A stretch of DNA of 33,539 bases, taken from a virus. The translations under genes were made by a program, and so were the position numbers. The stretch is taken from IMG/VR virus record IMGVR_UViG_3300005613_000242, positions 1 to 33,539 of that record; one strand, 5' to 3'. Shown here piece after piece: positions 1 through 18,818 of the stretch (position 1 is its first letter; each line of letters begins with the position of its first letter). A model generated the notes under the pieces. That model was not told the DNA's origin and ran no database searches. It worked only from the letters and a program-made list of their open reading frames with translations.

Positions 1-33
1 ATTACAAAAAATAGAAAAGGATGTTTTAGCCCT

Positions 34-639
34 ATGCAAACAAAAGAAGCTTTAAAACTAGTTGGCGGTTTAAGTAAACCCTCCAAGATGCCTGGCTGGG
101 CATATGGTATACCAGCCGCGGAATGCAAGACTGGTAAGAAGCTACAGAACGTAGAAGGCAGCACGTGCTATGACTGTTATGCTTTAAAAGGTTGCTATGT
201 TTTTAAAGTTGTGCAGGAAGCACAATACAGGCGCCTGGCTTCCATTCGGTCCGCTGTCTGGGTTGATGCAATGATTTTAATAATCAATTCTAAAAAATCA
301 AAGGAATTTAGATGGCACGATTCTGGTGACGTACAGGACCCAGAGCATTTAAAAAAGATCTATGAAGTATGCAAAGGCACGCCAGGCATCAAGCACTGGA
401 TGCCGACGCGGGAATCGTGGGTCAAGCAATACCTGGACCAGAAGCCAGACAATTTGGTGATAAGGTTTTCAATGCCGATGGTGGACCAGGAAGCAGCGGC
501 AAGCTGGCCGAACACTTCAACGGTTGTGACTGACAGCGGCAAGCGTACCTGTCCAGCACCGGACCAGAACAATGAATGCGGAAGCTGCAGAGCGTGTTGG
601 GACCCGAACGTTAGGAATGTAGCATATGGCCAGCACTAA
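34..639 (+). CDS. Gp88-family phage protein (cysteine-rich)
   Basis: A 201-residue protein resembling the phage 'gene product 88' family; its biochemical role is unknown to me. It is cysteine-rich, with one cluster near the N-terminus (C31, C45, C48, C54, including the CYDC motif) and another at the C-terminus (C173, C182, C185, C188, including CGSCRAC). This layout suggests a metal or iron-sulfur site (inference). The ATG at 34 is preceded by AAAAGG about 13 bases upstream, a rather long spacing; an ATG at 21 is closed at once by a stop. Its base composition is close to half GC, clearly richer than the AT-rich replication and structural genes of the window, which suggests recent acquisition or different selection. 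It is the first gene of a short rightward unit that runs into the heptamer array. Confidence 0.75.
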   Translation: MQTKEALKLVGGLSKPSKMPGWAYGIPAAECKTGKKLQNVEGSTCYDCYALKGCYVFKVVQEAQYRRLASIRSAVWVDAMILIINSKKSKEFRWHDSGDVQDPEHLKKIYEVCKGTPGIKHWMPTRESWVKQYLDQKPDNLVIRFSMPMVDQEAAASWPNTSTVVTDSGKRTCPAPDQNNECGSCRACWDPNVRNVAYGQH

Positions 640-793
640 ACCATATATTAAAAAAAGAAGATGGCGGATTATAGCTGATAAAATACACGATGAATGGTGT
701 ATCCAGAACGGCTACCCAATCAAGATCCAAGCACCAAGCTTCAAGCCACAAGCACCAAGCACCAAGCCGCAAGCTTCAAGCAACAAGCGTTAG
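626..793 (+). CDS. Small basic ORF with a repeat-encoded tail
   Basis: A 55-codon ORF starting inside the last codons of the gp88-like gene (14-base overlap, shifted frame). The first 32 residues are basic and Trp/Arg-rich (start MASTKPYIKKRRWR). The remainder, about 23 residues, is a low-complexity run rich in Q, A, P, S and K that is simply the translation of the CAAGCNN heptamers. I do not recognise it. The tight overlap argues for translational coupling, while the repeat-derived tail argues that only the N-terminal part, or none, is under protein selection. Confidence 0.45.
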   Translation: MASTKPYIKKRRWRIIADKIHDEWCIQNGYPIKIQAPSFKPQAPSTKPQASSNKR

Positions 794-878
794 GCGCCAA
801 GCACCAAGCCGTCAAGCATCAAGCGGAGCGTCAAGCAACAAGCGTTGAACGTGGTCCCAGTCATCAAGCGCCAAGCAA
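721..878. repeat. CAAGCNN heptamer tandem array
   Basis: There are 17 exact copies of CAAGC. Nine consecutive units (starting at 728 and every 7 bases to 784) are in perfect 7-base register, each followed by two variable bases. A degenerate unit at 791 keeps the register, and units at 798, 805, 813, 820, 832, 839, 865 and 872 follow with small shifts. The array lies where the rightward gp88 unit and the leftward nuclease gene converge, and both reading frames enter it. It is GC-rich compared with the rest of the window. Function unknown; candidates are an RNA- or DNA-binding iteron array, a packaging or replication site, or a slippage-prone simple repeat. Confidence 0.9.
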
Positions 879-1189
879 GGTGTTTCCCGGTGATCGATCA
901 ACAAGCCTTGGACCGCGGCACTCTCATAAAGTTTAATGGACAGAGGATCGAGGGTCTGAAGAAGGATAAAGTTTCGCTTTGTGTGGGTAAGATGAAACAG
1001 TTTTTGGTGTGGTGAAAATGATACTTTATTCGTCTTTGTAACTTTTAATTCAACAGTAAAAAAACCACAATTATCATTGTAACCTAACAAATCTGGTACA
1101 CCAAAGGATGCCCAAGATTCAAGTCTTGTCCACGTAATTTTAGGTGTTTTTTTCTTAACTAATTTCCAGAATTTAGATTCGTTTTTCAA
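812..1189 (-). CDS. VRR-NUC-like nuclease (PD-(D/E)XK)
   Basis: A 125-residue protein with the pattern of a small PD-(D/E)XK / VRR-NUC nuclease of the Holliday-junction-resolvase fold. Visible motifs are G-V-P-D at 30-33, a strand ending E47-L-K49 (FTVELKV) and Q62 in SPHQ; these would be the metal and catalytic residues. In phages such enzymes act on branched DNA during replication, recombination or packaging. The only in-frame start is TTG at 1189, without a convincing ribosome site, so the N-terminus is uncertain. The last residues (LLLDAPLDA) are encoded by the reverse strand of the heptamer array. It is the last gene of a three-gene leftward unit driven from the 1553-1585 promoter. Confidence 0.7.
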   Translation of the reverse strand: MKNESKFWKLVKKKTPKITWTRLESWASFGVPDLLGYNDNCGFFTVELKVTKTNKVSFSPHQKLFHLTHTKRNFILLQTLDPLSIKLYESAAVQGLLIDHRETPCLALDDWDHVQRLLLDAPLDA

Positions 1190-1197
1190 TGTAACAG

Positions 1198-1389
1198 CTA
1201 ATCAACCAAGATGAATAATCTATGGGATTCTTTTGCACCAATTAGTTTATTTGTTATAAGTTTTACTTCTCTAATATCTTTAGGATGTTTCCAGTTTGCA
1301 CGTGAAACTATTTGCACTTTTGAGTTTTGACCAATCTCAGAATTGTCTACAAACTTTTTAAGTATTTGTATAAGTAATTTAGTTTGCAT
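1198..1389 (-). CDS. Hypothetical small basic protein
   Basis: 63 residues, lysine-rich, no motif I recognise. Its ATG overlaps the stop of the upstream coiled-coil gene as TAATG, and AAAGG lies about 10 bases upstream, so it is probably translated by coupling. It ends 8 bases before the nuclease start, forming a compact three-gene leftward unit. Confidence 0.6.
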   Translation of the reverse strand: MQTKLLIQILKKFVDNSEIGQNSKVQIVSRANWKHPKDIREVKLITNKLIGAKESHRLFILVD

Positions 1390-1550
1390 TAAAGAGCACC
1401 TTTATTTCTAAATTGACTAACAATATCAGAAACTTTTTGTTCTATTTCTTTTATTTTTTCTTGTAACTTATTTATTTCTTTTTCTTGTTTTCTAATGACT
1501 ATTTCAAGATCACTAGGTTTCATATCGTACAAATCTCTCATCTTTTGCAT
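1389..1550 (-). CDS. Small coiled-coil protein, probably leaderless
   Basis: The frame is open from 1646, but I place the start at the ATG at 1550 (53 residues). The longer form would run across the divergent promoter and into the terminase gene. With the start at 1550 the predicted transcription start on the minus strand falls on the A of the ATG. The protein is a nearly uninterrupted Glu/Lys/Ile helix (EIVIRKQEKEINKLQEKIKE) with heptad character, so a coiled coil is likely. No function recognised; later ATGs at 1541 and 1523 are alternative starts. Confidence 0.6.
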   Translation of the reverse strand: MQKMRDLYDMKPSDLEIVIRKQEKEINKLQEKIKEIEQKVSDIVSQFRNKGAL

Positions 1551-1552
1551 AA

Positions 1553-1585
1553 TTGACTTATAGCGTAACATAAGGTATGAGTCAA
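1553..1585. promoter_or_regulatory. Symmetric divergent promoter / operator
   Basis: An inverted repeat with 10-base arms (TTGACTTATA at 1553-1562; TATGAGTCAA at 1576-1585; 9 of 10 positions pair) around a 13-base centre. Each arm supplies the -35 box of one strand and most of the -10 box of the other. Plus strand: TTGACT, 17-base spacer, TATGAG. Minus strand: TTGACT, 17-base spacer, TATAAG. Counting 7 bases past each -10 box puts the transcription start on the ATG at 1588 (+) and the ATG at 1550 (-). The two promoters overlap fully, so they probably compete or share one operator-binding regulator. Confidence 0.7.
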
Positions 1586-1587
1586 GT

Positions 1588-2181
1588 ATGGGAAGACCAA
1601 AGGAACTCACTCCAAAACAGATGAAGTTTGCAGAGTTGTTAGTCACTAACGAAGGTAAACTGACTGCAACAGAAGCTGCAAAGCAGGCTGGCTATGAACC
1701 AGAACGTGCAAGATTTACTGCATCTGAACTACGTAATCCAAATAGATATCCATTAGTTGTTAAATACATTGGTGAATTAAGAACAGAACTGCAAAAGAAG
1801 TATGAAGTTACTTATGAAAACCACGTATCAGAACTAGCTAAGATTAGAAATGATGCATTAAAAAAAGGTGCTTGGTCAGCGGCTGTAAATGCAGAAGTTG
1901 CAAGAGGTAAGGCAGCTGGATTGTATGTAGAACAGAAGATAATCAAACACGGTAGACTCGAAGATATGACTGAAAAGGAATTAGAGTTGAAGATGAAAAC
2001 AATCATTGAAGAACACAAAGGATTATTGATTGAAGCAGATTTCGATGATATCAAAGAGGAAGTAAATGACAATGGACCTGATAAATCAGATAGCGGAGGA
2101 AACGAGAATAGCGAACAATCCGAACTCGACAAAGGAACAGAAGAAGATAGCGACGAAGAGATGGTACGAACTAGTCACTAA
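1588..2181 (+). CDS. terS: Terminase small subunit-like DNA-binding protein
   Basis: 197 residues. The N-terminus (MGRPKELTPKQMKFAELLV, then TATEAAKQAGY) matches the helix-turn-helix region of phage terminase small subunits, which recognise the packaging site and feed DNA to the large subunit. A helical oligomerisation region follows (about 60-150), then a very acidic tail rich in D, E, S, G and N. The ATG at 1588 has no good ribosome site and coincides with the predicted transcription start, so translation may be leaderless. No large terminase follows; the next gene is convergent and overlaps by 11 bases. Standing alone and opposite to the structural operon is unusual; a transcriptional regulator with a TerS-like HTH is the alternative. 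Confidence 0.7.
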   Translation: MGRPKELTPKQMKFAELLVTNEGKLTATEAAKQAGYEPERARFTASELRNPNRYPLVVKYIGELRTELQKKYEVTYENHVSELAKIRNDALKKGAWSAAVNAEVARGKAAGLYVEQKIIKHGRLEDMTEKELELKMKTIIEEHKGLLIEADFDDIKEEVNDNGPDKSDSGGNENSEQSELDKGTEEDSDEEMVRTSH

Positions 2182-2470
2182 GTTTAGTAAGTTTCTTAAT
2201 GCAACCAATTGGAATGATATTTCTATCTCCAAAAGTTAAGTTGCCGTTCTCATCCTTATCGTAAGTTGCAAAAAATTTAAGAAACTTTTTATCCTTAGAA
2301 TATACCCAGGCTTCAGACGTAGGACTTGCAATAGTCATCTTATCAAACTCAAACTTATCAGCCCAACCAGTTTCACCGCAAGGATCTATCCATTCAATTC
2401 TGTATTTCTTATAAGGGAAGGCCCTGTCTGAACTCAGTCTTGATTCAAGCTTTTTTCTTTTCCTAGGCAT
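2171..2470 (-). CDS. Hypothetical protein
   Basis: 99 residues with a basic N-terminus (MPRKRKKLESR) and a likely beta-rich body containing aromatic residues. I recognise no family. The ATG at 2470 is immediately preceded by AGGGAGG, too close for a normal ribosome site, and by the left 26-bp arm of the inverted-repeat element, so expression may depend on that arm. It converges on and overlaps the end of the TerS-like gene by 11 bases. Confidence 0.6.
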   Translation of the reverse strand: MPRKRKKLESRLSSDRAFPYKKYRIEWIDPCGETGWADKFEFDKMTIASPTSEAWVYSKDKKFLKFFATYDKDENGNLTFGDRNIIPIGCIKKLTKLSD

Positions 2471-2473
2471 CCT

Positions 2474-2739
2474 CCCTATATAGAATATTTTTAGGACTTT
2501 ATCTACTCACGAAAATTTTCCGAAGGTAATTTGCAACCGTCTATGAAAAGTGTTGATTTTATTGAATAATAATCGAATGTACCGTTTTTTCGGTAACAAC
2601 GGTAACACCTCGGTACAAAAAAATCGTCTATAATCGTTGCTATACAACACTTCTAGCGTTTTGTTACCAAATTACCGTCGATTTTGACTTTTGAAAATTT
2701 TTTTGAATACAACAAGTCCTAAAAATATTCTATATAGGG
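2474..2739. repeat. 266-bp element with perfect 26-bp inverted ends
   Basis: Bases 2474-2499 are the exact reverse complement of 2714-2739 (26 of 26). Read outward, each arm ends in TATTCTATATAGGG. The 214-base core is non-coding and contains GGTAAC-type sites in both orientations: GTACCG at 2579, CGGTAAC at 2591 and 2600, CGGTAC at 2611, GTTACC at 2663 and TTACCG at 2672. It also has an AAGTGTTG/CAACACTT pair (near 2550 and 2645) and GAAAATTTT next to each arm. No target-site duplication flanks it. Replication origin, divergent phage promoters or operators, or a MITE-like element are the options; the iteron-like core favours an origin or control region. Confidence 0.85.
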
Positions 2740-2745
2740 CGGTAC

Positions 2746-2798
2746 ATTGTGGCAATTTTGTGTCATCCACGGTCCTCGGGCCACGATCCTGCCACAAT
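2746..2798. other. GC-rich hairpin in the intergenic region
   Basis: A 9-bp stem, ATTGTGGCA (2746-2754) with TGCCACAAT (2790-2798), encloses a GC-rich loop that carries the direct repeat CCACGGTCC (2767) / CCACGATCC (2781). It lies between the inverted-repeat element and the end of the leftward gene at 2818. No U-run follows on either strand, so it is a poor intrinsic terminator. A structured RNA or protein-binding site is equally possible. The remaining non-coding bases to 2817 show nothing else. Confidence 0.5.
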
Positions 2799-2817
2799 TG
2801 CCTTAATTCTATCACAA

Positions 2818-3234
2818 TTAAATAAGTTTAGTAGCTTCATCAAGATACAAGTCTGCAACACGTTTCAACTTAAAGTTGTTTGATGTAAAGTGGGTAGTGT
2901 GTGGTAAGTCCTTTTCATACCAAACTAATTTGCGTTTAAGTTGTTTTAAGTTCCACGCATAGTATGAACCGTCATTAAACTTGACAATGTACCCTGGTAT
3001 CCTATTATATTGTTTAGCTCTTTCCATTAACGGTCTGTACTTAATCTCCTCGATAAGTGAACCGTTAAATGCGAAGGGTGAGTAGTTCTCCCTGTTCTTT
3101 AACTCAATAACATATACCTGATTATAAGTATCATAAGGATTAAAGTTACCAGTAGATTGTATAAGTCTATCTTTTTTAAATACTCTTTCATTAAGTTCTT
3201 GAACCATTTGGCTTTCATTTTTCCTCCAATTCAT
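2818..3234 (-). CDS. Putative PD-(D/E)XK nuclease-like protein
   Basis: 138 residues. The stretch QVYVIELKNRENY (about residues 39-51) looks like the strand with E-x-K catalytic residues of restriction-endonuclease-like folds. It is followed by EEIKYRPLMERA and YIVKFNDGSYYAW, which fit the remainder of such a core. No clear upstream catalytic Asp can be assigned, so the call is tentative. The ATG overlaps the stop of the preceding gene (ATGA, 4 bases), and it is the last gene of the leftward nuclease-rich operon. Confidence 0.5.
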   Translation of the reverse strand: MNWRKNESQMVQELNERVFKKDRLIQSTGNFNPYDTYNQVYVIELKNRENYSPFAFNGSLIEEIKYRPLMERAKQYNRIPGYIVKFNDGSYYAWNLKQLKRKLVWYEKDLPHTTHFTSNNFKLKRVADLYLDEATKLI

Positions 3235-3602
3235 ATGATATAATCATAACCATTTTTCTTGAATGCGTTTTTCATAGCCATAATAATTCTTCCCCTGTTA
3301 TCAGCTATTAATCTATTTAATACAAAAACTGGATCATTTTTACTTTTTGGTATTTTTTCATATTTTTCTTTAAATTCTTTTGATTCAACGACTGCACGTA
3401 CGGCTTCAATCTTAGAACCAAAAACGTGATCATATCCTCTTTCTTTTTGTTTTATTCTTTCCTTTGCATACATATCAAGTCTTTCTTCTAACCATCTTGT
3501 TCTAAAACCGTTTTTATTAACATAAGTAACCATTAAATTCATAGCTTTATCCAAAGTTACATTATTTGCTTCACAATAATTTTTTAACTTATTCCAGTTC
3601 AT
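3231..3602 (-). CDS. Hypothetical basic helical protein
   Basis: 123 residues, very lysine-rich and predicted mostly helical; no motif recognised. It overlaps the end of the HNH gene upstream by 14 bases and the start of the nuclease-like gene downstream by 4, so it belongs to the same translationally coupled string. AAAGG lies about 10 bases before the ATG. Confidence 0.6.
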   Translation of the reverse strand: MNWNKLKNYCEANNVTLDKAMNLMVTYVNKNGFRTRWLEERLDMYAKERIKQKERGYDHVFGSKIEAVRAVVESKEFKEKYEKIPKSKNDPVFVLNRLIADNRGRIIMAMKNAFKKNGYDYII

Positions 3603-4026
3603 TTTTTATTTGCCTTTCTATTTCTATTTCTATTAATCGTTTCCACAAACTAAGTGTGGACCCATTCTTCAAACTATTACATCTACTACAACAAAACATT
3701 ACATTACCTTTTTTGTAAGTTATATCTGTATTAAATCTATCTACTGAAAAATTAGTTGGCACTCTCTTTTGCGTACCTGTTCTAATGAAAGTTAATTCTA
3801 TGTCACAGTATCTACAAAGTTTACCAAACTTTGCTTTATGTTGTTCCCACTCTTCAAAAACCTCTGGTTTAGTCATCTCAGGAATCCAACCTTTTCTTAC
3901 ATAATTATAGCCTTTTCTAACTTTTGGGTACATTGAACTAGGTTTAAAGATCCTATTAATTGAGGCCCTAACAAAGTTAGTCTCATTGTTCATATACTTT
4001 AGATCAGACTTACGTCTATTTTTCAT
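3589..4026 (-). CDS. HNH endonuclease
   Basis: 145 residues. Zinc and HNH features are C71-x2-C74 (CRYC), D96 in SVDRF, G-N108-V-x-F and C113-x2-C116-N-x2-K (CSRCNSLK), in the usual order of phage HNH / endonuclease VII-like proteins. The usual His of the first motif is replaced by the DR pair, as in several phage members. It may act in packaging, in intron-less homing or on branched DNA. The ATG overlaps the stop of the RecB-like exonuclease (ATGA). An internal ATG at residue 12 is a second possible start. Confidence 0.75.
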   Translation of the reverse strand: MKNRRKSDLKYMNNETNFVRASINRIFKPSSMYPKVRKGYNYVRKGWIPEMTKPEVFEEWEQHKAKFGKLCRYCDIELTFIRTGTQKRVPTNFSVDRFNTDITYKKGNVMFCCSRCNSLKNGSTLSLWKRLIEIEIERQIKNELE

Positions 4027-4709
4027 TCTTTCGTCTGTTGCATCTCAAAGTATTCATCAAGTCGTCTTAAGAATTTATGTTTTAATAACCTAAACTCTGG
4101 TCCTTCTATGATGAATTCTTGATAATTATTATCAGGCGTACACATCATAATGACGCCTCGATCCATATTGGTCCCATACAAATAATCGTGTGCCATAGCA
4201 TAAGCAGATAATTGTAAGAAATAATCCTCGATCCACTCTCTACGTTTCAATTTATTTGATTGCTTAAAGTCTATGATGGCTTCCTTACCTTGATGTACTC
4301 CTGCAAGGTCCGTTGATCCTGCGTAAAGACCAGGGTAATGCAAAGTTACTTCTAAGCCAAAATATTCTTCTATGTTTTGTAGTCCGCGTTCAATGATGGT
4401 AGAAGCCATTGAATGTGCTTCCTTACCGATGTCCGTTAAATCTTGATATCCTTCACCTTTGATGTGCATCTCAATGATTTTATGCATAGCCGTACCACGC
4501 GATGAAGAAACATTAAATACTTTCGTAGCTTCTTCCTCACCTACCCTATGCTTCCATTCACTAAGTTTTAATCTAGATTCTAAAGGTTTGGTTGCGGATA
4601 AGATCGTAGTAACTGATGGTAATCTCATACCACTTACTTCATACAATCTTCTTCCATCAACCGTAGCCCTTGTTGACGTAGGATAAATAAATTTATCATT
4701 ATGCTTCAT
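4023..4709 (-). CDS. RecB/Cas4-like PD-(D/E)XK exonuclease
   Basis: 228 residues counted from the ATG at 4709. Motifs are GTAMHKIIEMH with H76, GSTDLAG with D134, AIIDFKQ with D147 and K149, and QLSAYA with Q166: the full H...D...DxK...QxxxY signature of RecB-like/Cas4-like nucleases used by phages for recombination and host-DNA breakdown. Start choice: the frame has an earlier ATG at 4721, but that one lacks a ribosome site. The ATG at 4709 has GGAG six bases upstream and overlaps the stop of the small zinc-protein gene as ATGA. Heads a nuclease cluster with the HNH protein. Confidence 0.85.
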   Translation of the reverse strand: MKHNDKFIYPTSTRATVDGRRLYEVSGMRLPSVTTILSATKPLESRLKLSEWKHRVGEEEATKVFNVSSSRGTAMHKIIEMHIKGEGYQDLTDIGKEAHSMASTIIERGLQNIEEYFGLEVTLHYPGLYAGSTDLAGVHQGKEAIIDFKQSNKLKRREWIEDYFLQLSAYAMAHDYLYGTNMDRGVIMMCTPDNNYQEFIIEGPEFRLLKHKFLRRLDEYFEMQQTKE

Positions 4710-4864
4710 TGTGTGCTCCATATGGTATTAGACAAGATGATCCTAAGTTCATCGTCATCTAATTCACCTTGACTGTCACATTGGTTACAATCCGTAAAAG
4801 TTTCTCCAACTTTTATGTATCCATTGCCATTGCAATGTTGACAAATTTTATTTTGCTTTTCCAT
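4706..4864 (-). CDS. Small zinc-ribbon protein (DnaJ-finger-like)
   Basis: 52 residues. Two CxxC pairs, CQHCNGNGY near the N-terminus and CNQCDSQGE about 18 residues later, resemble a single DnaJ-type CxxCxGxG zinc finger, followed by an acidic tail. It begins inside the end of the ribbon-helix-helix-like gene (17-base overlap) and its stop shares bases with the exonuclease start (ATGA), so it is embedded in the operon. Partner and role are unknown; DNA or protein binding is likely. Confidence 0.7.
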   Translation of the reverse strand: MEKQNKICQHCNGNGYIKVGETFTDCNQCDSQGELDDDELRIILSNTIWSTQ

Positions 4865-5015
4865 TTGACTTCTCTCCCTTGTTCTCTTTAAAGAATCTAA
4901 TCAAACGTCCGATCATCTTAGATCGCGTTCTATTCGTCTTGTCTGCTAACATTCCAAGTTCTTTCCAGTCCTCGATGTTTACTGACAATGACTTGTACTT
5001 ATTTGGGTTTGCCAT
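4848..5015 (-). CDS. Ribbon-helix-helix-like small DNA-binding protein
   Basis: 55 residues. The pattern KYKSLSVNIEDWKELGMLAD, followed by KTNRTRSKMIGRLIRFF, fits the beta-strand/helix/helix layout of Arc/MetJ-type (CopG-like) proteins with a basic tail. AGGAGAG stands just upstream of the ATG at 5015. As the first small gene in front of the zinc protein and exonuclease it may be a repressor or a DNA-binding accessory of this operon (inference). Confidence 0.65.
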   Translation of the reverse strand: MANPNKYKSLSVNIEDWKELGMLADKTNRTRSKMIGRLIRFFKENKGEKSNGKAK

Positions 5016-5023
5016 TTTCTCTC

Positions 5024-5323
5024 CTATCTTTTTTGTAAGTAATATTCGTAAACGATTTCATTCTTTGCATCATCAGGATGCGGTAAGTATGTTTTATTTG
5101 GATCACTTCTAATTCCCGATATTTTTTTATGCACGACATCAATGATGGGTCTTTTATATTTTCCATCTTCTGCCTTTGTCGTTGCAAAGTCGTTAATTAG
5201 TTTAACCATTCTTTTTATTTGAAATTCTCCATCACTTTCTTTAGATAAAAAACCTTTGTAATACATAGTTTTTTCACCTTTTTTTGATGTTTGAATCCAT
5301 TTTTCTACTTGTTCGTATGTCAT
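5024..5323 (-). CDS. Hypothetical protein
   Basis: 99 residues from the ATG at 5323, which has AAAGGAAA a few bases upstream. The frame extends to an ATG at 5353, but that codon lies in the -10 box of the promoter at 5348-5377, so the shorter start is preferred. It is basic and mostly helical, with a Pro/Asp-rich segment (YLPHPDDA) near the C-terminus. No family recognised. Confidence 0.6.
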   Translation of the reverse strand: MTYEQVEKWIQTSKKGEKTMYYKGFLSKESDGEFQIKRMVKLINDFATTKAEDGKYKRPIIDVVHKKISGIRSDPNKTYLPHPDDAKNEIVYEYYLQKR

Positions 5324-5347
5324 ATTGTTTCCTTTCTTTTTGTTTAT

Positions 5348-5377
5348 TTTCATTATATGGGAATCTATACTAAAATA
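5348..5377 (-). promoter_or_regulatory. Promoter with two-block motif
   Basis: On the minus strand the order is TATTTTAGT, 9 bases, then CATATAATGAAA, which contains a perfect TATAAT. A weak -35 (TTGTTA) stands 18 bases upstream of TATAAT. The same two blocks recur at 6469-6497 with an 8-base gap. The predicted start gives a leader of about 24 bases to the ATG at 5323. Confidence 0.6.
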
Positions 5378-5437
5378 ACAAGTGTTGCAAGAATATATTT
5401 TTTATGATAACTTGGTGCTTCTCTTCACCTTTTGTTT

Positions 5438-5466
5438 GCTCGTCTTACCTTTCTGGTAAGACGGGC
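5438..5466. terminator. Intercistronic hairpin
   Basis: Stem CGTCTTACC (5441-5449) with GGTAAGACG (5455-5463) around TTTCT, extended by a G-T and two G-C pairs to 12 bp. It lies just after the leftward gene ending at 5476 and before the promoter at 5348-5377. No U-run follows, so it may be a processing or stabilising hairpin rather than a classical terminator. Bases 5354-5475 contain no gene. Confidence 0.55.
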
Positions 5467-5475
5467 ACAAATTAA

Positions 5476-5688
5476 TTAAATTAATTCTAAAGGTTTACAG
5501 CTAAAATTAACTATTAACTTTTGAGAGTTTACTTCTTCAGGACCTATTTCTCTTAAAAAAGACATACCTTTAATAAAACCTGCAGTTGCACAGTCATAGT
5601 GAGTGTTATAGGTTGGATAAAATTCTACAGGATTAGTGCATTGCTGCGTTATTACAGAACATATTTGTACTATTAATAAAAATCTCAT
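5476..5688 (-). CDS. Small exported or membrane-anchored Cys protein
   Basis: 70 residues with a hydrophobic N-terminus (MRFLLIVQICSVI) that could be a signal or anchor, then a short soluble part with cysteines (C33, C64). The ATG overlaps the stop of the small basic gene upstream (ATGA). It resembles in layout two other small ORFs here (6532-6747 and 17688-17885): a hydrophobic start followed by two spaced cysteines. Function unknown; periplasmic or inner-membrane host modulation is speculation. Confidence 0.55.
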   Translation of the reverse strand: MRFLLIVQICSVITQQCTNPVEFYPTYNTHYDCATAGFIKGMSFLREIGPEEVNSQKLIVNFSCKPLELI

Positions 5689-5819
5689 TTGCCTTGTCCA
5701 CGATCCGCTTTCCTACGCGTAGTTCTCTTGTTATATTTTTTATTGTGTCGTCCTGGTCTTTTCTTAGGAGTTTCTTTAAAAAAGGTTATGGCACCAATGC
5801 TAGATTTCTTTTTCGCCAT
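5685..5819 (-). CDS. Small highly basic protein
   Basis: 44 residues, about a third K or R (starts MAKKKSSIGAITFFKETPKK, then an Arg/Asn-rich tail). I recall near-identical short basic ORFs in other marine phage genomes, without a function. It starts inside the end of the zinc-ribbon gene and its stop overlaps the next ATG as ATGA. Nucleic-acid binding is likely from charge alone. Confidence 0.65.
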   Translation of the reverse strand: MAKKKSSIGAITFFKETPKKRPGRHNKKYNKRTTRRKADRGQGK

Positions 5820-6012
5820 CTACCCTCATATCAAATCTCGTTTTTTTATCCGCTAGAACGTATTTTATTACTCCATTAACCTTTTGTTCTAAATCAGATC
5901 CACACGAGGTGCATCGATAGTGCGTTGGATGTAAACTTATCAGCAACGTAAAATCACTACACTCAGGACAAATGCCTGATACTACTTCGGTAGAAAAAAT
6001 TTTTGTGCTCAT
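5800..6012 (-). CDS. Zinc-ribbon protein
   Basis: 70 residues with CPEC (residues 15-18) and CTSC (34-37), a classic four-cysteine zinc ribbon, then a basic/acidic tail. The ATG overlaps the stop of SpeD copy 1 (ATGA, 4 bases). Such small ribbons often bind RNA polymerase or nucleic acid, but nothing here decides which. It overlaps the following basic ORF by 20 bases. Confidence 0.65.
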   Translation of the reverse strand: MSTKIFSTEVVSGICPECSDFTLLISLHPTHYRCTSCGSDLEQKVNGVIKYVLADKKTRFDMRVDGEKEI

Positions 6013-6413
6013 TTTTTATAATTAAGTATACCATCAGAGATGTCAGTAAGTCCAGTCTCACGGTTTAAATATTTGTATTCTATCTTAGTTAGTTCAAAAT
6101 CTTTTGCTATTTTTTTGCATATGTCATTCTCATCAAATTCACCACAAGAATAAACATCAAATTGTATCATTGCAGGAACAGGTTCGTCCCAAGTATGCAT
6201 TACGATGTGTGAAGTTTCTATGATTGCTGCGACAGTTAAACCTCTGTTACCAGGTACGTCTAAGTATTTTGCGTATGGTCCCATTAATACTTTCATTCCA
6301 ATGGAATCTACAAAATCTCTCATCCAATCTACAATGTGTTCTTCGTCTTTAGGTGGTCGTTTTGATTCAGCTCTTACGATTAAATGTTTATGAACTAATA
6401 AGTTAGTTTTCAT
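6009..6413 (-). CDS. speD: SpeD-like pyruvoyl decarboxylase, copy 1
   Basis: 134 residues from the ATG at 6413; the longer frame would need a TTG start, and the second copy begins at the equivalent residue. Homologue of bacterial S-adenosylmethionine decarboxylase (spermidine synthesis), a self-cleaving pyruvoyl enzyme. The processing segment is IIETSHIVMHTWDE: S68 would become the pyruvoyl group, H73 and C90 (YSCGEF) are the other catalytic residues. The usual Glu before the Ser is Thr67, with Glu66 one place earlier, and two residues are inserted before the Cys. About three quarters of residues match copy 2 (18441-18818). Phage SpeD homologues can act on other substrates (ornithine or arginine decarboxylases are known), so specificity is open. 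Confidence 0.8.
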   Translation of the reverse strand: MKTNLLVHKHLIVRAESKRPPKDEEHIVDWMRDFVDSIGMKVLMGPYAKYLDVPGNRGLTVAAIIETSHIVMHTWDEPVPAMIQFDVYSCGEFDENDICKKIAKDFELTKIEYKYLNRETGLTDISDGILNYKK

Positions 6414-6460
6414 CAGGACACTGGCATTGCTTGATGCCAAATAATTTACAAATGATTTTC

Positions 6461-6532
6461 TTAATTAGTTTCATTATATGCCCAATACACTAAAATACAT
6501 ATGATTACAATAGCTATGCCTAGTGTTTCCAT
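6461..6532 (-). CDS. 23-residue single-span membrane peptide
   Basis: A very short ORF (METLGIAIVIICILVYWAYN...) that is one hydrophobic span. It is coupled to the gene upstream by TAATG. Its last codons coincide with the TATAAT block of the promoter for SpeD copy 1, so either the DNA serves both uses or the ORF is accidental. Confidence 0.4.
   Translation of the reverse strand: METLGIAIVIICILVYWAYNETN
6469..6497 (-). promoter_or_regulatory. Promoter with two-block motif (SpeD copy 1)
   Basis: Minus strand: TATTTTAGT, 8 bases, CATATAATGAAA, matching the element at 5348-5377 in both blocks. TATAAT occupies 6473-6478. The leader to the SpeD ATG at 6413 would be about 50 bases. No good -35 hexamer is visible at the normal distance, so the TATTTTAGT block may be an activator or alternative recognition element. 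Confidence 0.5.
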
Positions 6533-6747
6533 TACTTCATTATTAACTTTTTAATGGTTATAGTGCCATCAATGTTAACATCTATTTCTGCATCTGTCTC
6601 TATGCATTGAATGTTTTTATTAGTCATACTCATATTACGAGTAATTAATCTTTTATGTTTTAAACATTCAGATATGGAGTCTTGAATTCTATGTTCTACT
6701 AATTTGTCATTTATAAAAAATAACAATACAATAACAGTTTCAATCAT
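6532..6747 (-). CDS. Small protein with hydrophobic N-terminus
   Basis: 71 residues. The first 12 (MIETVIVLLFFI) are hydrophobic, followed by a charged helical region and C28 and C48. The layout is similar to the small ORFs at 5476 and 17688. The ATG overlaps the stop of the gene upstream (ATGA) and the stop overlaps the next ATG (TAATG). No family recognised. Confidence 0.55.
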   Translation of the reverse strand: MIETVIVLLFFINDKLVEHRIQDSISECLKHKRLITRNMSMTNKNIQCIETDAEIDVNIDGTITIKKLIMK

Positions 6748-6920
6748 ACAAATTTTCCTTTATTTGGGCCTTTTTTAATCATATATTTAGATGTACCATT
6801 GGCACCTATTTCTACTTCCTTACGAAGCATTTGAAAAAATTTAATTTCTTTTTTAGATTCTAAAGATTCTTGTGCGTATTTAATACTTTTGTATTGATTT
6901 ATTTTATCTCTGTCAGCCAT
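6744..6920 (-). CDS. Hypothetical small basic protein
   Basis: 58 residues from the ATG at 6920, which has GGAGG five bases upstream; the open frame could begin at a TTG 12 bases earlier, but the ATG is better. Lysine-rich, ending in MIKKGPNKGKFV. Coupled on both sides (TAATG before, ATGA after). Function unknown. Confidence 0.6.
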   Translation of the reverse strand: MADRDKINQYKSIKYAQESLESKKEIKFFQMLRKEVEIGANGTSKYMIKKGPNKGKFV

Positions 6921-7021
6921 TACATCCTCCAATATTCAGTTATTTGTTTCCACTCACATTCAAAATCTTCACAGGTATAATCATATTCTTGAAAGGTCCC
7001 TGCGTTAATGCCCGTTTCCAT
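6920..7021 (-). CDS. Tiny acidic ORF
   Basis: 33 residues, acidic and rich in Glu, Tyr and Trp, with two cysteines (EYDYTCEDFECEW). It starts within the end of the membrane/coiled-coil gene and its stop is shared with the next ATG as TAATG. Support is only the exact coupling on both sides and the absence of any other gene in the gap. Confidence 0.45.
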   Translation of the reverse strand: METGINAGTFQEYDYTCEDFECEWKQITEYWRM

Positions 7022-7388
7022 TCCCATTAGTAAATTTAATATCTCTTGTTGCGTCTTTAAGCTTTTCAACATCTTTTTTTAACTTTTCAATATCTTGTCT
7101 AGCTGCTTCCAACATAACTTTAACGTGTAAGTTTTCATCTAACAACTGTTGTTGTTTTTCTGTATCTTCGGCCAGGGCTTCTAACAAAAAGAATTGTTCT
7201 TTGTCAACAGGTACTTGATCTGCTTTTTTTAATAAATCTGCTTCCATTAACTGAAGTCTTGTCTCTAAAGTATTAATAGTATTAGTCATACCAATATACA
7301 TATAAACTGCAAAACCTGCCGCAGCTATTAATGAACCAATAGTTTTAATATCTGTTTTTACAGATGTGTCTTCAGTTATCTTGGACAT
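7005..7388 (-). CDS. Membrane-anchored coiled-coil protein
   Basis: 127 residues: a short cytoplasmic-type start, one membrane segment (about residues 17-33, SLIAAAGFAVYMYIG), then a long heptad-rich helix (about 36-115) and an Asn/Gly/His tail. The topology suits a holin accessory, a spanin-like or a cell-envelope protein, and lysis is plausible because a 22-residue membrane-active-looking peptide is coupled directly upstream. Not a recognisable family member. Confidence 0.6.
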   Translation of the reverse strand: MSKITEDTSVKTDIKTIGSLIAAAGFAVYMYIGMTNTINTLETRLQLMEADLLKKADQVPVDKEQFFLLEALAEDTEKQQQLLDENLHVKVMLEAARQDIEKLKKDVEKLKDATRDIKFTNGNGNGH

Positions 7389-10962: not shown

Positions 10963-12431
10963 AACTGATATCCATACCTTTCTTTTTTTGGTTTTAATAA
11001 ATACAAGTTTTCTTTGGCTCTTGTTGCACCCACATACCATACTCTATGTTCTTCATCTGCTTTTTCTATGTTGTTTTCTACAGACTCTCTTATCTTTCTA
11101 GCATTATCTAATACTAAAATAACATTATCACATTCACCACCTTTGGCTGCGTGAATAGTTGATACTTCAATTCTTGCGCTTTGACTTAATCTTTCGTTAT
11201 TACTTAACATTGTTCTTATATAAAAACATTCCTCCTGGTCTGCCTTAACAAAAATTTTATACCAAAGATCATCCGGCTGATAACCAAAGTCTTCTAATTT
11301 ATACAAAGCTTTATTATCTTTAAACTTTGGATTATTTGGAATGTATTCATATAATTCTTTAGCATCATTTAAAGATATGGAAGATCCTTTACATAGGTGG
11401 CCAAAATTAATTATAGATTTATACAATCTAGTATTAAAACTTTTACCAAATCTATTTTTATAATATAAATTTTTTTCTCTTAAATATTTTGATATTTCAT
11501 CAGAACGATAAACAGTTCTAGTTAGTATTAACCAATTATGTTTTGTAAAATCTATATGGTCCATACTAAATATAGGCTCTACGTTCCCTGGTGATCCTTT
11601 TTTAGCAAAGTATTCTTTTTGTTTTCTAGTATGTATTCTACTTACGATGACATTTGATACCTGTTGTATATTTTTTGGTACACGATTTGAATAAGGTAAG
11701 ACTTGTTCTTCTGCTGGTTCATTTAAAAATCTATTAACATCTGCACCAGCCCAGGCAAATATTGCTTGGTCATCATCTCCAGCAAGATAAATATCTTTAG
11801 ATTTTTCTTTTAAGATATCAAACATCTTCCATTGTATGGGTGATAAATCTTGAGCTTCGTCTATAAAGACAACATCAAACTCTCTGCATTTTTCTTTTTG
11901 TAAAACAAACTTTTCAATCATGTCATTGAAGTCATCTAAAACAAATTGTTTTTTAAAATGATTGTAGTTTAAATAAATGTGTCCTAATGTTTCATAGTCT
12001 ACTTCTCGACTCCATTCATTTGTATTAAACTCAGACTCTACAGATATATCTTTGACCCTAGCTTTATTTATAAGTTTAAAGTACTCACTATTAAAATCTA
12101 AATAACCAGACTCATCTCCTGAGTCTGTAACTCTTAAGTTTAACTCTCTGCCTATTTGTTCGTAATGAACCGGTTGCATAACATTTTCTTCACTCATTCC
12201 CAATGTATGAAATGCAAATGAATGTAGCGTTTGAAAATATCTTAAATCTTTTTTATTTAAGTCTGGGTGTTTATCTAACATTCTTTCTTTTGCTTCATTC
12301 GCTGCCTTTCTTGTAAAAGCAAAGTAACCAATACGATTTAAACTTGTTCCTTTTTTAATATACTCATCTACTAAATTTAATAGTGTTGTAGTCTTACCTG
12401 TACCTGGAGGTCCAAATATTTTTTTAATCAT
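10959..12431 (-). CDS. UvrD-like superfamily 1 DNA helicase
   Basis: 490 residues. Walker A GPPGTGKT (7-14), motif Ia around FAFTRKAA, Walker B FIDEAQD (189-195), motif III GDDDQAIFAWAGA (218-230), motif V TIHAAKGGE (425-433) and motif VI YVGATRAKE (466-474). All are in UvrD/Rep order, and the compact size resembles phage Dda-type helicases. It would unwind DNA 3'-5' (UvrD-like) or act in recombination. The ATG overlaps the primase stop (TAATG) and the stop overlaps the DUF3310 start (ATGA). Confidence 0.92.
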   Translation of the reverse strand: MIKKIFGPPGTGKTTTLLNLVDEYIKKGTSLNRIGYFAFTRKAANEAKERMLDKHPDLNKKDLRYFQTLHSFAFHTLGMSEENVMQPVHYEQIGRELNLRVTDSGDESGYLDFNSEYFKLINKARVKDISVESEFNTNEWSREVDYETLGHIYLNYNHFKKQFVLDDFNDMIEKFVLQKEKCREFDVVFIDEAQDLSPIQWKMFDILKEKSKDIYLAGDDDQAIFAWAGADVNRFLNEPAEEQVLPYSNRVPKNIQQVSNVIVSRIHTRKQKEYFAKKGSPGNVEPIFSMDHIDFTKHNWLILTRTVYRSDEISKYLREKNLYYKNRFGKSFNTRLYKSIINFGHLCKGSSISLNDAKELYEYIPNNPKFKDNKALYKLEDFGYQPDDLWYKIFVKADQEECFYIRTMLSNNERLSQSARIEVSTIHAAKGGECDNVILVLDNARKIRESVENNIEKADEEHRVWYVGATRAKENLYLLKPKKERYGYQL

Positions 12432-14125
12432 TAAAATATTTCCTCCTTACCTTTTAGTTCCATTAATTCTTCTTTTGGTTTTGTATCTGATAATAAACTT
12501 GGAAACTTATCTAAAGGTAATTGTAAAACATTAACTGGATTATTGGAGCTATCATCAGTTTTCTTTTTAGGAAATCTTTTATCAACACCAAGTACTGCTT
12601 TATATAATCTTTCTATACGTTCTCCTGTCTTACCTCTATTCTCTTTCCATTCTTTATTTTTTAAAGTTGCATAGAAAGAAGAATAAACAAAAAATGCTTG
12701 ATTGTTTTCTATAAATACAGCACCTGTTTTAAATGCTGCAAATGTTTCTGCCTTTGGTCCATTTAAATATTGTAATAAATATTCATGTAATAATTCATCT
12801 GGTGTAGTTCCTTTAGGTGGTGAAGTAATAATTTTTGGTGGAAACAGATTATCTAGTATATCTTGAAATTCATCTTGTTTTATTTTTGGTGGTACCTTAT
12901 CAGCTGCAGCACCTATGATGGCTCTAATATTTTCTATTTCAATAATTTGTTTTATATTTTTTGCTCTAACTTCTTTAGTTGTTTGACCATCATCTAATGT
13001 AACATTGAATGTATATTCAGGTTCAGGATATGTTATTTTTTGCAATCCGCTTAATGGTGGAAAGGTTCTTCTGTTATAAGATAGGTATCCAAATTTTTTA
13101 TTTCTACATACAGCTTTCATACATACTGGCTGTATTGGATCTTCATTACAAGTATATCCTTTAATATTTCTTGCCCAAGATTTTAATTTCTTTTTAGTTT
13201 TTTCTTCTGACCAATCTAAAACTCCATTAGCATCTGATTTAAAATATTTATTAGGTGCAGCGATAACCATCTTCTCCCAATCATCTGGATATTTCTTTTT
13301 GGCAAACACTGCATAGTTATATAAAAACCTATCTCTGCCATCTGTTAATTTATCTTTAGTTAATATTGCAAGACAAGGTGGTCCATCATTAAACTCTTCT
13401 CCACCACCTATTAATATTTTTCTAGTATGTTCTATTGCAAACTCTTCTAAATCATCTGATGAATAAGTATTTGCTTTAATAACTTCTGCAAATTGATCAA
13501 AGTTAAAAGTTGTACCATCTAAATTAAAACCAACTCTTTCTGTTTTGTTGTAATAAGGTAAATTAATAAATTGTCCATTAACATAATTACCTTCTGGATC
13601 TTGTCCTAATTCAGTTTGTTTTGGATATATCTCAATGTTTGTTGGAAGTTTTAAAGTAAATAATAATTTTTCTAAAAATCCTCTAATGAAAACTGCTTTT
13701 GCTGGTTCCTTTAAAAATAAATATAAATGTAAACCACCACTTTTAGATTTAACAGGAACTAATGGAAGTTTATTTTCTGCTATAATATCTAAATATTTTT
13801 TATAAGGAAAGTTAGAATAGCTATGTTGTTTATCATCAATATCAATTGCACCAAATCTTGCCATACCTTGATCATCACAAGGTTGTACACCAATAGATTG
13901 TCTACCTGTTAAGTGATCTAAATAATCTTGATTAGTTAATTCTCTATGAGTCCAACCATAAATAGGTTTAACCTTTCCTGTAGTTGGATCTATTTTAGTT
14001 TGTGTAAGATCTGCTGCTCCAAAGTTTCTTTGAAGTCCACTAAATGCTTGTATAAAAATTTTTTCTTTATGCCCTAATTCCATAATTGCTTTCAAATCTA
14101 TGTGGGCGATTACTCGCCCACACAT
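12431..14125 (-). CDS. AEP-superfamily primase (TOTE/prim-pol type)
   Basis: 564 residues if started at the ATG at 14125, 550 if started at 14083. The N-terminal half has the archaeo-eukaryotic primase core: AIDIDD with D95 and D97, SKSGGLHLYLFL (127-138) with H133, and IEIYPKQTEL followed by GQFINLPYY, as in TOTE-type primases. The C-terminal half contains TDGRDRFLYNYAVF and a Cys-containing segment. Neither has a named function to me; a primase-associated helical domain is likely. It would prime synthesis for the family A polymerase. Start is uncertain: neither ATG has a good ribosome site, and a perfect hairpin covers the first codons of the longer form. Confidence 0.8.
   Translation of the reverse strand: MCGRVIAHIDLKAIMELGHKEKIFIQAFSGLQRNFGAADLTQTKIDPTTGKVKPIYGWTHRELTNQDYLDHLTGRQSIGVQPCDDQGMARFGAIDIDDKQHSYSNFPYKKYLDIIAENKLPLVPVKSKSGGLHLYLFLKEPAKAVFIRGFLEKLLFTLKLPTNIEIYPKQTELGQDPEGNYVNGQFINLPYYNKTERVGFNLDGTTFNFDQFAEVIKANTYSSDDLEEFAIEHTRKILIGGGEEFNDGPPCLAILTKDKLTDGRDRFLYNYAVFAKKKYPDDWEKMVIAAPNKYFKSDANGVLDWSEEKTKKKLKSWARNIKGYTCNEDPIQPVCMKAVCRNKKFGYLSYNRRTFPPLSGLQKITYPEPEYTFNVTLDDGQTTKEVRAKNIKQIIEIENIRAIIGAAADKVPPKIKQDEFQDILDNLFPPKIITSPPKGTTPDELLHEYLLQYLNGPKAETFAAFKTGAVFIENNQAFFVYSSFYATLKNKEWKENRGKTGERIERLYKAVLGVDKRFPKKKTDDSSNNPVNVLQLPLDKFPSLLSDTKPKEELMELKGKEEIF
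14101..14122. promoter_or_regulatory. Perfect hairpin at the primase start
   Basis: TGTGGGCGA (14101-14109) pairs with TCGCCCACA (14114-14122), a 9-bp GC-rich stem with a 4-base loop, in the mRNA just after the upstream gene ends. No U-run follows, so it is not a standard terminator. It overlaps codons 2-8 of the longer primase frame or lies in the leader of the shorter one, and may lower primase translation or mark an RNA processing site. Confidence 0.6.
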
Positions 14126-18440: not shown

Positions 18441-18818
18441 TTAAAGGTCAATTAGCCCTGTTTCGCGATTTAGGTATTTATATTCAATTTTGCGTATATC
18501 AAAGTCTTTACTAATTTTATCACAAATTTTATGTGGATCAAACTCCCCACAACTATAAACATCAAATTGCATTAACGCTGGATTAACTTCATCCCAGACG
18601 TGCATAACAATGTGTGATGTTTCAATAATAGCTGCACCAGTTATTCCTCTATTACCTGGTACGTCGTGATATTTAACATAAGGACCCATTAATACTTTCA
18701 TATTAATTGATTCGATAAAATCTCTTAACCAATTAGACAAAACTTCTTCATCCATTGGTGGCCTCACAGCTTCAGCTCTAACAATTAAATGTTTATGAAC
18801 CAAAAGACTATTTTGCAT
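18441..18818 (-). CDS. speD: SpeD-like pyruvoyl decarboxylase, copy 2
   Basis: 125 residues, collinear with copy 1 (6009-6413) and identical at roughly 92 of 125 positions by eye. The processing Ser68, His73 and Cys90 are conserved, as is the unusual Thr67 before the Ser (ETSHIVMH). Copy 2 lacks the C-terminal SDGILNYKK extension. AAAGGA is 7 bases before the ATG. It lies in the late region next to Hsp20 and the holin-like gene, while copy 1 is in the early/small-gene region, so expression times probably differ. SAM decarboxylation or another amino-acid decarboxylation are the candidate activities. Confidence 0.8.
   Translation of the reverse strand: MQNSLLVHKHLIVRAEAVRPPMDEEVLSNWLRDFIESINMKVLMGPYVKYHDVPGNRGITGAAIIETSHIVMHVWDEVNPALMQFDVYSCGEFDPHKICDKISKDFDIRKIEYKYLNRETGLIDL

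Follow-up and report, generated by a model that had tools for sequence, protein, structure and literature searches.

A Candidate Iteron-Type Replication Origin with Lineage-Specific Repeats in HTVC023P-Type Pelagiphages

Introduction

What is the function of a 266-bp non-coding element, bounded by two exact inverted repeats, in the genome of a phage that infects SAR11, the most common bacteria of the ocean? The element is found at positions 2474–2739 of the window (the whole stretch of 33,539 nucleotides that was analyzed), between the open reading frames at 2171–2470(−) and 2818–3234(−). The window is a 33.5-kb viral contig and a fragment of an HTVC023P-type pelagiphage (SAR11 host), for which the closest isolate is Pelagibacter phage HTVC027P. 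The window was recognized as part of a larger genome because a sister contig, G001 (IMGVR 3300034418_004388; L116, L117), overlaps positions 1–7388 and carries the genes for TerL and the capsid. The two contigs represent closely related phage genomes, of which they cover overlapping and complementary parts. Eighty complete HTVC023P-type genomes have been published, and genomes of this type are 58.8 kb on average (PMC9599517). The genes at 6009–6440(−) and 18441–18818(−) of the window encode related proteins, S-adenosylmethionine decarboxylase-like by eye, that both match a single gene of G001.

An earlier note on this DNA had offered three explanations for the element: a bidirectional origin, a pair of divergent phage promoters, or a set of operators for one regulator. 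An origin was found to fit best, operators are a lesser possibility, and the promoter pair is unlikely. The text of the searched literature on HTVC023P-type phages makes no mention of a replication origin, of promoters, or of intergenic features. In this report, we propose that the element is, on balance, probably an iteron-type replication origin of the HTVC023P-type pelagiphages and that its repeats are probably read by the phage primase; we infer both the origin function and the reader protein.

Results

Arms and Folding of the Element. The features of the element and of the relevant genes are collected in Table 1. The exact inverted arms and the non-coding nature of the sequence between them, as described in the earlier note, were confirmed by an arm search and by the map of open reading frames. 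The arms are exact reverse complements, and no other match is found in the window at up to three mismatches (0 expected by chance). Chance cannot explain these arms. The symmetry continues to 55 nt at 84% (2471–2525/2688–2742), and an inner inverted pair of 13 nt is located at 2521–2533/2668–2680. Reading of both arms and flanks also upheld the observations that the outward ends are alike, with CTATATAGGG outward in both arms, and that no target-site duplication is visible on either side of the element. The single strand folds far better than shuffled sequences (z of −9.4 as DNA and −9.8 as RNA). No known RNA family or tRNA was found within the window, and a scan of 2100–3300 for σ70 promoters and terminators returned matches at the level of chance only. 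On the right flank, a leftward reading frame of 138 amino acids ends 78 bp past the right arm, the outward direction of which opposes the strand of the genes facing it. Directly outside this arm, at 2740–2815, there is an inverted pair, TTGTGGCA...TGCCACAA, with TCCACGG/CCACGATCC in between, and other lineages have comparable GTGGCA/TGCCAC pieces after the far arm.

Table 1. Features of the Element and Genes Considered in This Work
Feature	Position	Strand	Comment
Terminase small subunit (terS)	1588–2181	+	neighbor in most relatives; not likely the iteron reader
99-aa pelagiphage gene, function unknown (phrog_25889)	2171–2470	−	borders the element
Left 26-bp arm	2474–2499	+	outward on the minus strand reads CTATATAGGG; ATG of the 99-aa gene is 3 bp away
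Inner inverted-repeat arm	2521–2533	+	holds iteron-like GGTAAT (2525)
Center motif copy	2545–2574	−	minus strand TTCAATAAAATCAACACTTTTCATAG; IHF-like in sister L006
Main iteron cluster	2579–2618	+	GTACC(−) 2579, GGTAAC 2592, GGTAAC 2601, GGTAC 2612; steps of ~9–13 bp
Second center-like motif	2626–2660	+	TATAATCGTTGCTATACAACACTTCTAGCG; related to TATACCAACACTTCTAGAC of L008
Second iteron set, inverted	2664–2680	−	GTTACC and ATTACC
AT-rich stretch	2681–2713		82% AT; beside the right arm; possible unwinding region
Right 26-bp arm	2714–2739	−	inverted repeat of the left arm, without mismatch; degenerate in L006, lost in L007
Ribbon-helix-helix (RHH) protein, 55 aa	4848–5015	−	considered as reader; DNA-contact strand does not track the motif
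Archaeo-eukaryotic (TOTE-type) primase (AEP)	12431–14125	−	residues ~432–548 predicted winged helix; proposed iteron reader

Core of the Element. The GGTAAC-type sites that had been noticed in both directions within the core were confirmed as seven GGTA[AC] sites (2525, 2579(−), 2592, 2601, 2612, 2664(−), and 2672(−)). This number compares with 1.07 expected per 266 bp at the window's own rate and with at most 5 elsewhere, for a pattern that was picked after inspecting the sequence. The arrangement of multiple short repeats as two sets that flank a middle part is present, weakly so for exact 7-mers in the window's element, where these alone are not above shuffles. The AT content of the whole element is 69%, hardly above the 67% of the genome. 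Only about nine elements have a center motif clearly above shuffles, with IHF-like matches in related elements. In a genome-wide ranking of 7-mer clusters the element is not first in either the window or HTVC027P. The top cluster of the window is formed by dense, degenerate CAAGC-spaced repeats (CAAGCACCAAGC...) at ~720–870 near a GP88-like gene; these repeats are also found in L001, L007, and L044 and recur in many of these phages.

Conserved Position and Changing Repeat. The element is present at or near the same place, beside terS, in dozens of related contigs and in the isolates HTVC027P and HTVC023P. The layout is constant, with two sets of short repeats around a center, and the repeat is specific to the lineage: GGTAACA, TGGTACA, TTGTAACA, TTGAGACA, TTGTAGGAA, TGTGCCA, CTAGGAA, and others. 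A comparison with sister phages had been suggested in the earlier note, and the case in which the sisters are without the arms does not hold. Two near-identical sister contigs carry the same element with the same 240-bp arm spacing. Sister L006 (91% TerS identity) has its element in the same position, with a core that has changed from GGTAAC to TGGTACA, in six exact copies. L007 has kept the left arm alone, with TGACCA and GTACCA as core sites, and a 20-bp core of the left arm is conserved in both.

Upstream of the 99-aa gene, which belongs to a family that is nearly confined to pelagiphages (31 of 32 records), other contigs carry arrays of TTGTAACA, TTGAGACA, GTGTGACT, TGTTCCA, GTTGTAC, or GATCACC, and further arrays of CGTGGCG, TTGTAGGAA, TTGTAGTAA, or ATGTCGCA. 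Across the relatives the repeat unit is 7–10 bp long, and many arrays consist of at least three direct copies ~11 bp apart, a center (for example, AATATCAACACTTT or TATACCAACACTTCTAGAC), plus one or two additional copies. In HTVC027P the layout is found at 14.7–14.95 kb, in the gp27–gp28 intergenic region, with TTGTAACA iterons. The TGTGCCA array of 023Pt_psg01 (seven copies) and the CTAGGAA array of HTVC023P (five copies) are the top-scoring 7-mer repeat clusters of the 20 and 14 kb read, respectively. The neighboring gene is a different one in HTVC023P, and the element is therefore not tied to one promoter target. Homing endonuclease genes, HNH- or LAGLIDADG-like by eye, are found near the element in several lineages and differ in type (window 3589–4026(−), L007 4895–5332(−), and L130 14079–14537(+)).

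Perfect arms are found in the window's subgroup only, and those of HTVC027P are degenerate. The paired arms of the same element match each other above shuffles in L006, L028, L042, and L061. Arms as a universal feature were rejected, since 8 of the 18 elements tested show an arm match no better than shuffles. The general feature is the combination of lineage-specific iterons and a center; the perfect arms are a feature of the window's subgroup.

Which Protein Reads the Repeats? Across 26 genomes, the distance between primase C-terminal domains correlates with the distance between repeats with r = 0.69, or 0.34–0.39 given PolA. The corresponding partial correlations with motif distance are 0.53–0.63 for the RHH protein and 0.32–0.62 for TerS. 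Co-variation does not single out the primase domain, and the partial correlation is not decisive. G006 and G022 have the TTGTAACA repeat in common, yet their reading domains are only 41% identical.

The RHH protein gives the best correlation but was disfavored as the reader, since the same contact strand occurs with different repeats: it is identical between the window and 023Pt_psg01 and between TTGTAACA and TTGAGACA lineages. The gene for this protein is below the cutoff of the list of open reading frames and is present in nearly all of the related phages examined, in which the contact strand is almost fixed (KYKSLAV, KYKSLSV, or KYKNVSL). TerS was also disfavored; its recognition helix is essentially unchanged across different repeats (G047 with TTGAGACA and G010 with TTGTAACA).

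We infer that the primase is the reader because arrays adjoin primase genes in other phages, because of the predicted fold, and by analogy. In phages of Klebsiella, Salmonella, Pseudomonas, Providencia, and Acinetobacter, whose primase is a distant relative of that of the window (~24–27% identity), arrays of TGGAACG, ATGGAAC, and CGGTTGC occupy the non-coding gap immediately 5′ to the primase gene. These arrays are above all 300 shuffles in five of seven phages (Kokobel2, K21lambda1, PSA28, PMBT28, and DMU1). Those of JeffCo and Barton, which have the GGTAAC repeat of the window, are not above shuffles (p = 0.06–0.29). DSL-LC04 has no clear array at its primase, and Pan1 was left out of the test with a gap upstream of the primase that is too short.

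The C-terminal domain of the window's primase (117 residues, 432–548) is predicted to be a winged helix with a core pLDDT of 91–95. Its structural matches include TcpK with oriT (Z = 8.2), the C-terminal domain of the SaPIBov1 replication initiator (8tch; Z = 7.0), and SCCmec Cch (Z = 6.6), at a level (Z of ~7–8) that is within reach of unrelated models and can reflect a common arrangement. The winged helices of ORC are also among the structural neighbors. The most variable parts of the domain are residues 66–77, a putative recognition helix, and the wing. The predicted structure suggests a resemblance to the origin-binding domains of initiators. The primase gene is ~10 kb from the element in both the window and HTVC027P, in which the proposed initiator is not beside the iterons.

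Discussion

Under the proposed mechanism, the repeats would be bound by the winged helix at the C-terminus of the AEP primase that the phage itself encodes, and the bound primase would open the neighboring AT-rich DNA and prime synthesis there together with the phage SF1/SF2 helicases and PolA. A joint change of the repeats and of the domain that reads them would account for the lineage-specific repeats. The perfect arms probably either contribute, as accessory elements, to the same nucleoprotein structure or serve as outward-directed host promoters. The genes to the right of the element run toward it, which we count against an origin, as we do the ~10-kb distance to the primase gene and the small difference in AT content between the whole element and the genome. 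The GC-skew analysis suggested in the earlier note revealed no switch at the element in HTVC027P, where the skew follows gene strand and nothing beyond it.

The main rival reads the repeats as operator sites through which a phage regulator controls divergent host-type promoters located in the arms; the element would then switch between transcription programs rather than serve as an origin. We regard this explanation as unlikely, though not negligibly so. In many lineages the near arm terminates in CTATAGG, CTATGG, or CTATATAGGG, a short distance from where the 99-aa gene starts, fast turnover is also seen in the operators of repressors, and the distance between RHH proteins correlates best with motif distance. 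On the other flank of the element, HTVC023P gp20 looks by eye like a small DNA-binding protein, although it matched no family. Against a role as operators stand the constancy of the RHH contact strand across different repeats, the outward right arm, which faces genes that run in the opposite direction, and the arrays that adjoin the primase gene in phages of unrelated hosts. The last of these also argues against a packaging site (pac or cos) read by the terminase small subunit, as does the near-identity of the TerS recognition helix across different repeats; the adjacency of terS in most relatives speaks for such a site, which we consider improbable.

A pair of divergent promoters for a single-subunit, T7-type RNA polymerase is very improbable. 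The outward sequence TATATAGGG, which we take to resemble a T7 start, was counted in its favor. In both the window and the sister contig, the 19-bp promoter-like core is confined to the two arms of the element and is not repeated at several operons. The earlier note had called for a search for such a polymerase: HTVC027P, the closest isolate, lacks an RNA polymerase of its own and depends on the host enzyme (PMC12753301), and a PF00940 profile search of 13 records gave no match, though the control was silent too. A non-autonomous mobile element (MITE) would have perfect terminal repeats with no internal reading frame, as seen here, and was named in the earlier note as a case in which copies would be scattered in other genomes. 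A search of 84,980 bacterial and archaeal genomes gave no copy of the 26-bp arm, and among viral contigs only four others contain it. Each genome has a single copy of the element, always in the same position and without a target-site duplication, and the core changes by lineage. We therefore rejected a mobile element, to which we assign almost no probability.

If the element is an origin, as we favor, a layout with two iteron sets, which in 2018 was held to be unique to phage-inducible islands among known replicons (PMC6092414), also occurs in HTVC023P-type phages. The prediction for a cultured phage is then precise: the origin of HTVC027P would be at 14.7–14.95 kb, where it is open to a direct test. 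With a repeat that turns over fast inside a conserved frame, these elements would provide a natural series for studying the change of partners between initiator and origin. More tentatively, and with less than an even chance of being correct, these elements may form an origin family of fixed layout in which each lineage has exchanged its iteron "password" along with the winged helix of an AEP primase. Co-infecting ocean phages would then possess mutually blind replication systems, and the same logic would apply to phages of several other proteobacterial hosts.

The closest known systems are the SaPI/PICI origins, in which two sets of short iterons flank a middle region and the iterons differ between members (PMC6092414). 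The pelagiphage element has the same two-set layout with member-specific iterons, and the C-terminal domain of the window's primase aligns to that of the SaPIBov1 initiator, as noted above. Unlike the SaPI/PICI origins, which are found beside the rep gene, the pelagiphage element is distant from the primase gene, and unlike the Rep or Pri-Rep initiators the candidate initiator of the pelagiphages is a primase of the AEP (TOTE) type, in which Pfam showed no helicase domain. The α protein of satellite phage P4, a primase with several domains, uses a winged helix to bind the repeats of the origin (PMC4234260), as proposed here for the pelagiphage primase. The likeness is one of logic; P4 α is a bacterial-type primase with its own helicase. 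ORF904 of pRN1 is, like the window's protein, an AEP primase with a C-terminal winged helix (PMC4234260), and the pRN1 origin differs in being a stem-loop without iterons. Within the pelagiphages, the gp27–gp28 intergenic region of HTVC027P belongs to the same element family in a cultured phage and differs from the element of the window by its TTGTAACA iterons and its degenerate arms.
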